Source: an uncultured Thermogutta sp. (GTDB lineage Bacteria; Planctomycetota; Planctomycetia; Pirellulales; Thermoguttaceae). From it: a stretch of DNA of 64,000 nt. Position numbers and translations under genes: made by a program. The notes beneath the pieces were generated by a model. The model saw only the letters and a program-made list of their open reading frames with translations. It was not told where the DNA came from and did no database searches. The stretch spans positions 1 through 64,000 of the forward strand of contig CAKZMM010000042.1 in the NCBI GenBank assembly GCA_937128505.1. The letters run 5' to 3'. Shown here one piece after another: positions 40,276-46,611 of this stretch. The stretch's first letter is position 1. The number at the start of each line of letters is the position of its first letter.

Positions 40276-42263
40276 TCCTGAAACTCTCCGCCGCAGAACT
40301 TTTAGACGTCGCGAATTTTGGCCGCCAAACTGCACCCGTTGTTGACTAGCTACTTGCTGATCGCAGATAGTTAGCAGATACTCAGGCATCCACGCCTTCA
40401 TTTTAACTAGCTTTCCCGCTTTTTGCCAAACAAAAACCTTGCGGAGGCTTCCGCAGCCATGCGGGATCGTTAGGTGATTCTTTGCTTCCAATCATTTCAT
40501 TTAGCGACAAAGATTCCTTAAATCACGGCTGGGCACGGAGAGGATCTATATTTATTTCTCCGTCCGAGGCCCATTTTTCTTTGCGCGACAGCTCCTGCCG
40601 TCTCTGCCACGGTTGTCCAAGCGCTTGAAAGTAGCCTCCAATACCGCAGGGTAAAAATCAAATTTTTTTCCGCCACTCCCAACCTTACCTAACTGAGTAC
40701 CTTTAGCAGCCGTTGGGGCCGACAGGCCGTTCCCATAAGCTCCGCGATCAAGGCAACTAGCCACATTACCGAGAACGCGATCCATCAGACCGCGATATGG
40801 TCCAGTCTCCATCCCGATCAACCCCAACTGAGGCTTTGTGGAAAGGGATTCCCACATAATATTTTACCGGATCTCGCCAAACTCTTGCTCTATCCGATAG
40901 TTACGGTTTAGGTAGCCGAAGCCCAACAGTGATCAAGACGGGGAAAGCAGCGTCAAACTCACTTTCCAAAGCATCAGAAATCTGTTTTAAGAATCTCCAA
41001 ATGCGGTTCGAGAGAGGCTGTCATAGGTTAAAGCTTACCTTATTTCATTTCCCGGATAATGGATTTCAATTCCCGGATAATGGCCAATTATTCCGCCGCC
41101 ATATCCCCTGCCCAGTTGATTCGAATTTTCGCAAACTGTTTTTCTGTGCTAAATCATTGACGCGGCGCCATGTCTAGTTCATCTGGGATTTGGCGTTTTT
41201 AACACAGGATTCGGTGCTACCCACGATTCGAGTTATGTTTTCCAACACGAGATCCTTTTGTTCGATTCCTGGAGAATCAGCGGCAATCGTTTAACCCTTT
41301 TTCGCGCAAAAATCGGAAACTCTGCCTAGCACACTGGCCGCCTCGGCACAACTTTCAACCGTCCATCGGCGGGGGAAAATGTGCCATGTTCTCACGGTCA
41401 TAAACTCGCCGCGGCCGGCGATCATGGGACAATCACATCGCGGATCAAACGTTCGGATCAAAAATGTCGGGATGGATCGGTCGAAATCGGCGGGTGGATC
41501 GGTTCCGCCGTAAATCCGCGATGAGCCCTCTTTGTCTGGCGGCAACCTGTTCGAGAATACCGACCGATGCTTTCCCAACGCCGCGACGAAGATTACCCGG
41601 ATTTTGCGTAAAAAACTGCTCAATCAGCTAAAAAGACGGTGGTTAAAACCCCAAAAACAGAAAGCTCATGCAGGAACGAAACGCTTGTGCGAAAAAAGTC
41701 GGAGTTCTCAGGCACCTAACCAATTTCCGATGTAACCCGACACCAGACGTGGGTAAAAAGCTTATAGCCCATTCTTTTTCCGAGAGAAACCACTTCGGCC
41801 GAATTTTCGATTTTTTGGTAATTTAGTTTACACACTTCATGCAATTTTTTAGCAGATGACTGCTCTGGGCCCATGCTTCTTTAAGCAGAGGGTCCAACAA
41901 CCCACGAGAAGCCTAATCAATAGAGCCGCCCTGCCGGACGCTGACGAGACTGGCACTTGTGACTGTGCAAAGATGGAAGCACATTGAGGAGCTTGACAGG
42001 CATTAAAGCATCACGCCGTCAATCGAATATCGAATACTGGCATGCCGTCAATTCAATTCTGGGGTATCTTTGCGCCACTTATGGTCGGGAATCATTGAGA
42101 TCTCACTTTCACAAGAGAAATGATTAACTTTGATATGGTTGGCTAAAAATTTTGATGCAGCGCCAAGAAACCTGAGTAAACTTGCGTCGATCTGCAACCA
42201 AATTGGTTCCAGCGGGTGCATTATAAAGGGACTAGTGCATAATTTTGCTACAGCAAAATAAAA
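40276..42263. other. 2-kb spacer, no recognised gene
   Basis: No gene with a ribosome-binding site or known motif was found on either strand in nearly 2 kb. A tandem duplication of a 21-bp unit containing TTCCCGGATAATGG lies at 41046-41087. A small perfect hairpin (ATTTTGC/GCAAAAT, 42243-42260) precedes the structured RNA candidate. Confidence 0.5.
41046..41087 (+). repeat. Tandem duplication, 2 x 21 bp
   Basis: Two adjacent copies (41046-41066 and 41067-41087) share TTCCCGGATAATGG and differ mainly at their last bases. Confidence 0.85.
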
Positions 42264-42620
42264 CAGGCGAGCAAGGTTCGGGCCGCTTAACCTTGGCTCG
42301 CCTGCGTCATGCGGAAGTCTAATACTTCCGACTGAGGACCGCAACTCGCCTGTCGAGACGGGGGAGATAGAGCAGCAGGCGAGCCCGTCCTCATGGGACC
42401 GTTTCGGTGGAGTGGGGGGAGGCACTCTACCAAGGCCCGTCCCGCGGCCTTCACGCGCTTCATCGCTTGGCTGGTAATACGAGATACCACCAAGCACTCT
42501 GGGGGGTGACTGCTCTGCTTGAACAGAGCTATGGAAAGGTAGCTGCAATCCTCATGCCAAAAAAGCTCGGCTGGCTGCAGCCCAAAACCCGGAGATCACC
42601 TCTAGACGACATCCTCCGCT
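42264..42620 (+). ncRNA. Large structured RNA candidate, possibly HEARO/omega-RNA-like
   Basis: At least seven stable hairpins follow each other: 42264-42304 (15 bp, one bulge), 42312-42330 (CGGAAGT/ACTTCCG), 42345-42357 (CTCG/CGAG), 42406-42431 (GGTGGAGTG/CACTCTACC), 42432-42451 (AAGGCC/GGCCTT), 42465-42495 (GCTTGG plus TGGTA with TACCA plus CCAAGC) and 42512-42529 (GCTCTG/CAGAGC). A G-U pair in the fourth stem becomes an A-C mismatch on the other strand, which supports the plus strand. CAGGCGAG or its complement CTCGCCTG occurs four times, allowing alternative pairings. No protein is recognisable in any frame. The overall look, including ACCGCAACTCGCC and GGTGACTGCTCTGC segments, reminds me of HEARO RNAs (guide RNAs of IscB/IsrB), but no nuclease gene is adjacent. 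The class is uncertain; the presence of strong structure is not. Confidence 0.6.
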
Positions 42621-43055
42621 AACTGGGGCCCCCGGCTTGAGGAACCAGGATCCTGAGCTTGCTGGGAAACATCCCCCCCACATCCTGTACCTGGCAGACG
42701 GAAAAGCAGACATGAAATGAGCACGCCCCAAGAAAAGCTTTAAAGGGCTTAAAAAGCGTTGATAATCGCGACTACCTGCGAGCCGAAATGATTACTCACC
42801 CCGGATCCCCGAATGAGATCCGTTAACATCAGTAAGTTTGCAATGATTCAGCCCTTATGCCTGCCAATAAGCGCGCCTTTATTCGTGTCATAATTTCCTT
42901 TACTAAGGGCTATAGATCTGCTGAGCGGAAACGCTTCAAGCCGCTTGTGCACGGCAAGCTTTCGGAAAAGACGCGGAGCATGGGCCGATCAGCCTCAAGA
43001 TCGGGGCGGGCACCAGTTCCTCACCATTCAAGCTTCTAGCCCCAGTCCCGCGCAT
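42621..43055. other. Spacer after the structured RNA
   Basis: No iscB/isrB-like or other gene is recognised. The part up to about 42710 could still belong to the RNA element; it ends near ATGA at 42711-42714. Confidence 0.45.
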
Positions 43056-45059
43056 TTATGCCGCGAGGTCCAGCTCGCAAAGGCGCTGAAACAGCGGACA
43101 TCGCCGAACCAATTCTTGTTGAGACCCTACATCCATCAGTTGCCCGTCCTCCATGACGGCGATCTGATCCGCAAGCGTCAGGGTGCTCAGCCGGTGGCTA
43201 ATAATTATAGTTGTCCTTCCGGGGATGAAATCTTCAAGCACCTTATGAATTAACCGCTCGCTTTCCAGATCAAGTTGGCTTGTTGCTTCGTCAAGGATAA
43301 GTATTGCCGGGTTTCGGAGGATCGCACGCGCTAAGGCGATGCGTTGGCGCTGGCCACCGGATAACCGCGCTCCCATCGGACCGACTCGTGTTTGGTAACC
43401 CTCAGGGAGGTCCCGGATGATAAACTCGTGAGCTTGGGCCTTTCGTGCTGCCTGCTCCACCTCGGCCGGCGTTGCGCGAAGGGACCCATATCGGATGTTG
43501 TTGAAAACCGTATCATCGAAGAGCACCGGCTCTTGAGTGACAAGGCCAATTTGCCGGCGCAAATCACGGAGACGGACCTCCGTCAGAGGAACGCCGTCTA
43601 ACAGAACCCGCCCGGCCGTCGGATCGATGAATCGGGGAATCAGGCTCACGAGGGTCGATTTGCCGCACCCACTTGGACCCACGATCGCGAGCGTGGTGCC
43701 GAAAGGAATTTGCAGCTCGATCTCTTTAAGTACCAGTTTTTCGGGGTGATAAGCGAACGAAACCTTCTCGAATGTAATTTCGCGGTGATGCCTCAAAATC
43801 TTCCGCGGTCGGATCGGATCCCGCACCTGGGGTTGCTGGTCCAAAAGCTGGAGGACGCGATCCGAAGCGGCAGCTGCGCGCTGAAGTTGGCCAAATAAGT
43901 CGGAAAGCTTGCGTAACGGATCCGCTGCGCCGATTAGGAGCCCGTAAAAAAGGGCTAGGCTCGCGAGATCGAGGGGTCGATCCGTAATAGGGATTCCCAG
44001 GAGATGGGTTTCCCCGCGAAGAACGAGCCATCCACCGGCAAGTAAAGCCAGCACAATCGTTCCCATGCCCAGAAGTTCGGTGCTCGGGTGGACGAAAGCG
44101 TCGTAGCGCGCAATACGCATCGCAGTGGCGAAGTACTGCTTACTGGTGCGATGGAAACGTTTTTCTTCATGTTTTTCCATCGTGAATGCCTTAACGATTG
44201 CGATGCCGCGAAGAGCCGCCTCCAATCCTGCGTAAAGCTCCGCCATCTTTTCCATACCCCGACGATGCGCCGCTTTCAGTAGCCGCCCAAGCGAATAGAT
44301 TAAAAACCCAGCCACCGGTGTGATGAAAAGCGACACCAGGAGGAGCCGCCAGGAAACCCACATGGCCCCGACCAGGCAGGCAATCATTTTTAGCGGTTCC
44401 CGGGCAAGGCGGCCGACAAGCCATTCCAAGCCTGCCGAAATGGCGGCCAAATCGTGGGTAGAGCGAGACAAAAGTTGTGACATTCCGTCGCGATGAAAGG
44501 CCGCTAAATCCATGCGAAGGGCATGGGCAAAGAGGCGTTGGCGGAGATCGTAGGCTGCAAGTTGGGCAAACCGCGAGGCCAAGATGTTCTGACTAACCAA
44601 AAAGAAGCTTTTCAGGCCCGTGCCGAGCATGAGTACCACGAGAATAAGAACCAACGTCTGGAGACGGTCTTCTGGAACATAAGTCTCAACAAGCGGCATA
44701 GCCCAACGGTAGGTCCGGGCGGCATACTCCTCAGCTTCAAGTTGAGTTTGAATCTGAAACAATTTGCGCCTGATGGCTTCGGCATCAGTCGCCGATCCTT
44801 CCGACGTCGCCAGTTGGAGCCGGTTTTCTAATTCCCTGACTTGAGTGCGAAGGTCTTGTGCGGTTCTTTCGGCCCGTGACAGCTTCTCCGCGAGCCGATC
44901 CTGGAGTGATTTTTCCCCAAAGGTGATTTCCACAAGCGGGTAAACGACCCCGATATTTGCCCCCCAAAGGGCTCCCACTCCCAGGGCACAAATGAGGGCG
45001 CCAATAAGCGTCCAGCGGTGTTTTAGGGCCAAACGAATGACTCGTAAGAAGTTTCTCAT
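43056..45059 (-). CDS. ABC exporter, fused permease-ATPase (MsbA-like)
   Basis: The protein of about 667 residues has an N-terminal six-helix export domain and a C-terminal ATPase. The ATPase is complete: Walker A 'GPSGCGKST', Q-loop 'LVTQEP', signature 'LSGGQRQRIALARA', Walker B 'ILILDEATSQLD' and H-loop 'IISHRLSTL'. Such half-transporters dimerise and export lipids, lipopolysaccharide precursors or drugs. Unusually, about 90 residues separate helix 1 and helix 2 and are strongly predicted coiled coil ('LAEKLSRAERTAQDLRTQVR', 'ELENRLQLATSEG', 'RRKLFQIQTQLEAEEY'), placed in the periplasm. ATG 45059 is preferred because a Met-Arg start directly precedes helix 1; a TTG at 45086 is in frame. It has no neighbouring partner gene, so the substrate is unknown. 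Confidence 0.9.
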   Translation of the reverse strand: MRNFLRVIRLALKHRWTLIGALICALGVGALWGANIGVVYPLVEITFGEKSLQDRLAEKLSRAERTAQDLRTQVRELENRLQLATSEGSATDAEAIRRKLFQIQTQLEAEEYAARTYRWAMPLVETYVPEDRLQTLVLILVVLMLGTGLKSFFLVSQNILASRFAQLAAYDLRQRLFAHALRMDLAAFHRDGMSQLLSRSTHDLAAISAGLEWLVGRLAREPLKMIACLVGAMWVSWRLLLVSLFITPVAGFLIYSLGRLLKAAHRRGMEKMAELYAGLEAALRGIAIVKAFTMEKHEEKRFHRTSKQYFATAMRIARYDAFVHPSTELLGMGTIVLALLAGGWLVLRGETHLLGIPITDRPLDLASLALFYGLLIGAADPLRKLSDLFGQLQRAAAASDRVLQLLDQQPQVRDPIRPRKILRHHREITFEKVSFAYHPEKLVLKEIELQIPFGTTLAIVGPSGCGKSTLVSLIPRFIDPTAGRVLLDGVPLTEVRLRDLRRQIGLVTQEPVLFDDTVFNNIRYGSLRATPAEVEQAARKAQAHEFIIRDLPEGYQTRVGPMGARLSGGQRQRIALARAILRNPAILILDEATSQLDLESERLIHKVLEDFIPGRTTIIISHRLSTLTLADQIAVMEDGQLMDVGSQQELVRRCPLFQRLCELDLAA

Positions 45060-46611
45060 GGCTACTTTGCTGACCGTGAGGATCAACTCGCTTTTTTGAC
45101 CGAGTGGTTCTCCACCTTTTCGGGGCTCGACTATGAAGAATTCGGATAGCTTTTAGCTTTGCGGAAGCCGGCGTACATCTTCGGATCGCCGTGCGTCCAA
45201 AGCCTTCGGGTACTTACGTGAGTCGCTGTTGCTGCGCTTGGGAGTCGGTATATACCTTCTCGACCGAGGTTGGGTCAACGTGGGCTTCTCGGTCGTGGGT
45301 GGCGTGCCGTCACTGAGCACTTACGACAAGCGGTTTATAGCAGAGCTTCGCTTAGGAGTATTTCAAGCAGGTGAGACTCCATTTTGGCGTCGTAACAAAA
45401 TGAGCCCTCTGACAAGAAAAAAGGGCAAGGCTACCGATCAAATCAGGCTGCCAGCGTGGATTGACGATTCAGATTCGCCCGATCAAACCCCCGGAGTGGA
45501 GCCCGGATTGTGAATTCTGCACAGCACGCCGCCGCTTGCGCCCGGAACACGGCACCGGGCAACTCCTTTGGGACGGCCGTGCCCCCAATCGGGTGTTTTC
45601 TCGGCGCTCGCTCTGCAATACTTCGAGCTGCGGAGCGACAACCCCACCTGTTCCCAACAGGACATTTCTCCTTGTTTCCACGTTTCCATCTCCTCTCACT
45701 ACCGCGGAGACAGTCCGAAGTGCGTGGTGCCGGCACTAAGCGCATGGGTGTTTGCGGCGACCATCAGTAACCTTCGTATGAGTCCTCTCCCCTCAAAAGG
45801 CGCGGCACCGATGAGCGGAAGGGCAGACTCTCAGAAGGCAATTTTGCTCCCAGAAAAATGATTTGATCAGGTGATCAAGAAGCTTCTTAATTTTTATGTT
45901 TAGTTTTGCTGCTTTTTGCTTTTAGGAATCGGAGGTAACGCGCAGAATCTGCCTGGGCCTTAAGCCAGATCGTGCCCCACAAATTGGGAGCATTCATTTG
46001 AATCGGTTGTCGTGGAAATGTGATTTGATTAGGCTGGATGCAAAACTTGCGTAGCCTGGGTGGACTGAATTTGGGCGCCGGCGGAAGTTGACATAACGTC
46101 GTGGCCCCCGACGCGCGTGAAAACCAGCGGGGATACCCTTCGCGCACAATCATCCGGATGTTCGCATCATTCGGGATAAACGCGAAAGGAGATACCGCTC
46201 ACGCAAAACTGCTTTGTTTCGGATTGAACGATACTCTGCCGACGGCGCGGTAGGGCACAACGCGAGCTGCTAAAGCGGGGCATGTTACGGGGAACGGAAA
46301 TTAGCAAGATAGAAGATAGATATTCACCGAGCTAGCAGGGAAAATTTTGGAAAACAAGAACTTTCAAATGAACTTTGCAGCAAGAAGCAGGCTCACATCA
46401 GCGAGAAAAAATGGCAACAATATGCAGTTTCCGTCGGTACGATTTAGCGAACTGAGAAGATTTGGGAATCAACACCGGAAGGCGATCGGTCCTGAGGCAA
46501 TCGGTTTTCGTGCGGTTTAGGTCGATCCAAATATTCAAAAGTTTTGCCGCAGAGAAGTTTCGCTGGCAGGCCTGCACTATTACTTGGGCTCAACGAGAAG
46601 GGCGTGACTGT
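45060..46611. other. 1.5-kb divergent spacer with a GC-rich structured patch
   Basis: No gene is recognised. The section 45500-45760 is GC-rich, open in nearly all frames and rich in hairpins (see separate entry). A frame in phase with the sulfatase gene is open back to 46462 but is unlikely to be translated. Confidence 0.5.
45500..45760. ncRNA. Possible structured RNA, strand unknown
   Basis: Hairpins include CCTGTT/AACAGG (about 45647-45661), TTGCGCCCGG with CCGGGCAA (about 45536-45562), CACGG/CCGTG (about 45548-45581) and CGCTC/GAGCG (about 45608-45637). I could not match it to RNase P RNA, tmRNA, SRP RNA or a riboswitch. It may only be GC-rich spacer DNA. Confidence 0.25.

Follow-up and report, generated by a model that had tools for sequence, protein, structure and literature searches.

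A predicted sigma-54-dependent noncoding RNA gene conserved in the order Pirellulales

Results

A minus-strand gene bounded by a promoter and a terminator

The stretch of DNA analysed here (the window, 64,000 nt from an uncultured Thermogutta sp.) carries on its minus strand what is very probably a noncoding gene driven by sigma-54, with predicted expression and with homologues across the Pirellulales. We favour the reading, at a probability of roughly 0.6, that its product is a trans-acting, post-transcriptional regulatory RNA, controlled by sigma-54 and an activator and displaying multiple recognition motifs. The features of the locus are listed in Table 1.

Table 1. Features of the RNA locus, in window coordinates
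Feature	Position	Strand	Remarks
Functional unit	42213-42560	-	promoter through downstream two-site block
Sigma-54 (RpoN) -24/-12 promoter, TTGGCATGAGGATTGCA	42544..42560	-	11/12 positions of TGGCACG-N4-TTGCW
Noncoding RNA, ~279 nt	about 42533-42255	-	predicted 5' end ~12 nt after the -12 GC; 3' end in T-tract
C-rich run 3 (UCACCCCCCAGA), unpaired, interhelical	42500..42507	-	predicted fold; same run present in further genera of the family
C-rich run 2 (GCCUCCCCCCAC), in hairpin loop	42414..42421	-	predicted fold
C-rich run 1 (AUCUCCCCCGUC), unpaired	42360..42365	-	predicted fold
Large central hairpin, outer stem GAGGAC..GTCCTC, C-run in loop	42334..42392	-	predicted fold; genus-specific
Small hairpin CGGAAG..CTTCCG	42312..42330	-	conserved in family f1; helix 2, 94.6% paired
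Intrinsic terminator	42255..42304	-	hairpin 42264-42304 (15-16 bp), then TTTTATTTT at 42263-42255
Conserved two-site block, candidate activator site	42213..42252	-	just past terminator; resembles tandem LuxO boxes in relatives
ABC exporter gene (neighbour, context only)	43056..45086	-	upstream of RNA, same strand; Pfam ABC_membrane + ABC_tran

With its ends set by the promoter (5') and the terminator (3'), the minus-strand RNA folds at -121 kcal/mol (z = -4.94), and none of 200 shuffles was as stable. Over the interval 42240-42720 the minus strand also outperformed shuffles (z = -3.0), as did, modestly, the plus strand (z = -2.4). The initial annotation had taken the region for a large structured RNA read on the plus strand; its many strong hairpins, one of them 15-16 bp long, are real and the folding does exceed that of shuffled sequence, but the strand was wrong, the 15-bp hairpin being the terminator of the opposite gene, and positions 42562-42620 of the annotated stretch lie outside the functional unit. 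A plus-strand gene, with an extended -10 promoter and stem I as the 5' end of the RNA, was rejected because the supposed 3' motif, GCAAnnGGCGTGCCAA, turned out to be the minus-strand sigma-54 promoter, and stem I the terminator. At the level of sequence, the strand, promoter and terminator, and with them the gene boundaries, are established.

The absence of a protein in any frame, also claimed initially, agrees with the lack of a coding signal in homologues: their longest ORFs have a median length of 42.5 aa, against 43 aa in shuffles, so that a leader peptide or other protein-coding reading was discarded.

Conservation of the promoter, terminator and downstream block

One alignment, A1, with a row that had been shortened by hand, was left out of the analysis. 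Two blocks stand out as the most conserved in the alignments of homologous loci. One is GCAAnnGGCGTGCCAA on the plus strand, equivalent to TTGGCACGCC-nn-TTGC on the minus strand, whose promoter GG and GC are kept in 48/48 aligned loci, a count that is partly circular in that the set was partly selected on the promoter motif; upstream of -24, the aligned loci show no conservation. Because most of the aligned set had been gathered with that motif, we ran an out-of-sample test on 53 loci, nearly all from genomes outside the building set, found with a covariance model (R2) that spans the terminator (hairpin and T-tract) and the two-site block past it and contains no promoter sequence. Of these 53 loci, 51 have a same-strand sigma-54 site 136-406 bp upstream (a match at 10/12 positions or better, with a penalty when GG or GC is missing), compared with 4/53 on the opposite strand, 3/53 downstream and 0/50 further upstream. 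Dropping loci L140 and L161, possibly the same as the L097 and L094 records used to build R2, left the result unchanged. A sigma-54 promoter makes transcription dependent on an activator and a signal.

The second most conserved block consists of a GC-rich hairpin followed on the minus strand by CTGTTTTATTTTGC, that is, an intrinsic terminator. Covariance support among homologues, which the initial annotation had proposed to look for, is found in this stem, with 61 double-changed cells against 16 in shuffles. This is a strong terminator, for which no alternative antiterminator fold appeared. The body of the RNA that lies between it and the promoter (110-380 nt) varies widely in both sequence and length among homologues; in two loci of one genus (L018 and L027, g30), the second hairpin contains an inserted hairpin of ~65 nt.

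Activator sites beyond a gene's end are unusual. The two-site block just past the terminator, degenerate in the window copy, may bind the activator of the RNA's promoter. In relatives it resembles the LuxO box (consensus TTGCAW3TGCAA; PMC11443567): a match of at least 11/13 occurs in 40% of the out-of-sample loci, as opposed to 0.2% for random windows and 0.7% for shuffles, and strict 17-bp symmetry is mildly raised (at least 6/7 pairs in 25% vs 7%). Across six genomes, further LuxO-like sites were no more frequent than those of a control pattern, the locus itself aside, and no regulon was found. Three loci (L141, L155 and L181) have a further sigma-54-like site (10-11/12) within 450 bp past the block, which might serve that second promoter.

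Distribution and genomic neighbourhood

The initial annotation had envisaged a mobilised stand-alone copy and proposed BLASTN for copies in the genome; with 42240-42720 as query, only one was found in the source genome, alongside relatives in both remaining genomes of the genus and in another 17 from the family. R1, a covariance model built on the end that is conserved best, matched 46 of 119 family genomes, once each. R2 matched 136 of 397 Pirellulales genomes (34%) in at least 14 families, with one copy per genome except for a weak second match in a single genome. The helix of R2 was built one column off, which should cost sensitivity only, and the promoter test gave an independent check on its matches. 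The true frequency is probably above 34%, because only 10 candidates per genome were scored. Among 392 genomes of the phylum, R2 had no match outside the Pirellulales. A homologue is present in the cultured member of the order Blastopirellula marina DSM 3645, where it spans about 240 nt on the plus strand of NZ_CH672377.1 (about 1,243,214-1,243,453).

No gene for IscB or IsrB adjoins the RNA, as initially stated: it is flanked by an ABC exporter gene and, in relatives, by genes for DUF1549/DUF1553 and DUF1501 proteins. In nine families (f3, f4, f7, f9, f11, f13, f14, f15 and f18), the next same-strand gene encodes a DUF1549/DUF1553 protein; the loci with such a gene downstream of the RNA are L135, L149, L152, L157, L159, L160, L173, L189, L192 and L193. 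It is often followed by a ~420-aa gene, DUF1501 where checked (the Pfam check covered five DUF1549/DUF1553 genes and one DUF1501 gene). Family f1, to which the window belongs, keeps the RNA without the adjoining operon, and has lost or moved the DUF1549/DUF1553 gene. The ABC exporter lies upstream of the RNA in the window and in f15; the presence of both neighbours in f15 suggests an ancestral order of ABC exporter, RNA and DUF1549. Elsewhere in the window, two copies of TTCCCGGATAATGG form a close direct repeat (41050-41085).

Repeated motifs

Most homologues repeat pieces of GGGGYCGGAACAGAGAAGAGGCA, and the GGAACAGAGAAGAGGC motifs are mostly unpaired. Relative to dinucleotide shuffles, GGAACA, GAGAAGA and GAAGAGG each show a ~9-14-fold excess (GGAACA ~9-fold) and have a predicted unpaired fraction of 0.64-0.71 (GGAACA 0.69) vs 0.37; GGGGYCGG is in ~44-fold excess but mostly paired. 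The GA-rich motifs are present in 72-79% of the RNAs, and by inspection GGAACA or GAAGAGGC is displayed in many hairpin loops, that of the terminator included. GGA alone is not enriched (6.2 per RNA vs 7.6 in shuffles). C-rich motifs average 0.70 per RNA against 0.11 in shuffles, and 46% of the RNAs have one.

The genus of the window departs from this pattern. GA-rich motifs of the GGAACAGAGAAGAGGC type are entirely absent from its RNAs, and each of its three genomes instead has three CUCCCCC/CACCCCC runs per RNA; in the predicted fold of the window RNA, all three fall in unpaired stretches. One mechanism may thus not fit all members.

Relation to known RNA families

None of 4227 Rfam families, HEARO included, matched the element or its homologues, and at E<=10 nothing around the element reached E = 1, the three weak matches being unrelated. 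The sole Rfam match in the window is a cobalamin riboswitch (RF00174, 33965-34187 on the plus strand, 77 bits), far from the element. In the papers that could be searched, neither this RNA nor any Pirellulales-specific regulatory RNA is described; in its main text, a 50-genome ncRNA survey does not name planctomycetes. The undescribed class that the initial annotation had offered as its alternative is supported by the spread over families of a single order, the covarying stem and the absence of Rfam matches.

With a -24/-12 promoter directly upstream, its own terminator and no conserved ORF, the sequence very probably belongs among sigma-54-dependent noncoding RNA genes, a kind rather than a homologous family. 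In its working it would resemble known sigma-54 RNAs, but no homology was found that assigns it to one of their families. CrcZ of Pseudomonas, a 407-nt RNA with six A-rich stretches, is transcribed from a promoter that depends on RpoN and CbrB, and titrates Hfq (PMC4063720). CrcZ/CrcY and the Pirellulales RNA share a sigma-54 promoter, a stand-alone RNA of a few hundred nucleotides and a repeated purine-rich motif, but the latter has the GGAACAGAGAAGAGGC motif and candidate activator sites past the gene's end; the lack of any Rfam match for the window copy and its homologues gives no sign of homology to CrcZ. The Qrr RNAs of Vibrio, which depend on sigma-54 and LuxO, are similar in their -24/-12 promoter, intrinsic terminator and LuxO boxes (PMC11443567), whereas the Pirellulales RNA is longer, unrelated in sequence, single-copy and without an Rfam match, and has its LuxO-like boxes past the terminator instead of upstream of the sigma-54 promoter. 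Repeated GGA-containing loops, together with CsrA in every genome searched, recall the CsrA-sequestering CsrB/CsrC/RsmZ; however, CsrB has 22 GGA, which in loops is the known CsrA site (PMC7652899), while the Pirellulales RNA has ~6, not above chance, a core of GGAACA instead of ACARGGAUGU, and a sigma-54 promoter.

Discussion

Sigma-54 RNA polymerase would transcribe the single-copy minus-strand gene, and the intrinsic terminator would end the transcript. Expression should require an enhancer-binding protein of the NtrC/LuxO type, possibly bound at the block past the terminator, and the RNA would then act in trans on the messages of other genes through several motif copies. In most of the order, the GGAACAGAGAAGAGGC-type motifs would most plausibly be decoys that capture an RNA-binding protein, with CsrA as the first candidate; in the genus of the window, the three exposed C-rich runs would most plausibly pair with Shine-Dalgarno sequences. 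Expression itself, the signal, the activator, and the ligand or targets are all parts of this prediction.

CsrA is considered because it was found in 30/30 genomes searched (most with 3-15 copies, the genus of the window with 2-3) and because GGA loops are its known site, but the lack of enrichment of GGA itself, and the missing motif in the genus of the window, weaken this assignment; that the RNA is specifically a CsrA decoy is a tentative proposal, more likely wrong than right. Also unlikely, taken as a whole, is the broader scenario in which the RNA links sigma-54 signalling to post-transcriptional control across the order by titrating an expanded CsrA family, with the activator past the terminator and the genus of the window having switched from a GA-motif decoy to pairing by C-rich loops.

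Among the other explanations, the one closest to our reading keeps the same gene but makes base pairing its main mode of action in the whole order: its C-rich loops would block the sites where ribosomes bind target mRNAs, and its GA-rich motifs would be structural or chaperone-binding. The excess of C-rich motifs over shuffles, the three unpaired runs in the genus of the window and the precedent of Qrr for sRNAs made by sigma-54 all speak for it; yet fewer than half of the RNAs carry a C-rich motif, while GA-rich motifs are more widespread, and we give this version perhaps one chance in a handful. Less probable still is action in cis, in which the transcript would serve the DUF1549-DUF1501 operon downstream as its long leader or attenuator, and the stem would be a regulated terminator. 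Many families do have the operon next, in the same orientation, but its distance from the RNA varies (about 180-600 bp), family f1 retains the RNA without it, and a strong terminator lacking an alternative antiterminator fold speaks against attenuation.

A divergent housekeeping RNA (6S or SRP RNA) missed by the Rfam models would likewise be order-wide, single-copy and structured, but is very improbable: a sigma-54 promoter would be unusual for such an RNA, length and body sequence vary widely, and not even a weak 6S or SRP match appeared around the element at E<=10. tmRNA and RNase P were rejected, since both are found elsewhere in the genome (G000:C177 and G000:C79). The HEARO or omega-RNA identity suggested by the initial annotation, or that of another mobile-element RNA without its nuclease, can practically be set aside. 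Several stable hairpins and the absence of an adjacent protein on the strand then considered spoke for it. The likeness to HEARO (RF02033) and the IscB/IsrB omega-RNAs goes no further than size and a multi-hairpin appearance; the element differs from them in strand, promoter, copy number and genomic context. RF02033 matched neither the window copy at E<=10 nor any of 13 homologous loci, nor anything in a genome-wide search of 20 related genomes run without a positive control. A single copy per genome, stable neighbours, the gene's own promoter and terminator and the absence of the exact pattern from viral contigs likewise make a mobile element unlikely.

Order-wide conservation, the RNA's own promoter and terminator, and its repeated motifs make the regulator and targets of the proposed trans-acting RNA directly testable in a cultured strain. 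The RNA may explain how the multiplied CsrA proteins of the Pirellulales are controlled, and may offer a natural example of activator sites that lie past a gene's end.
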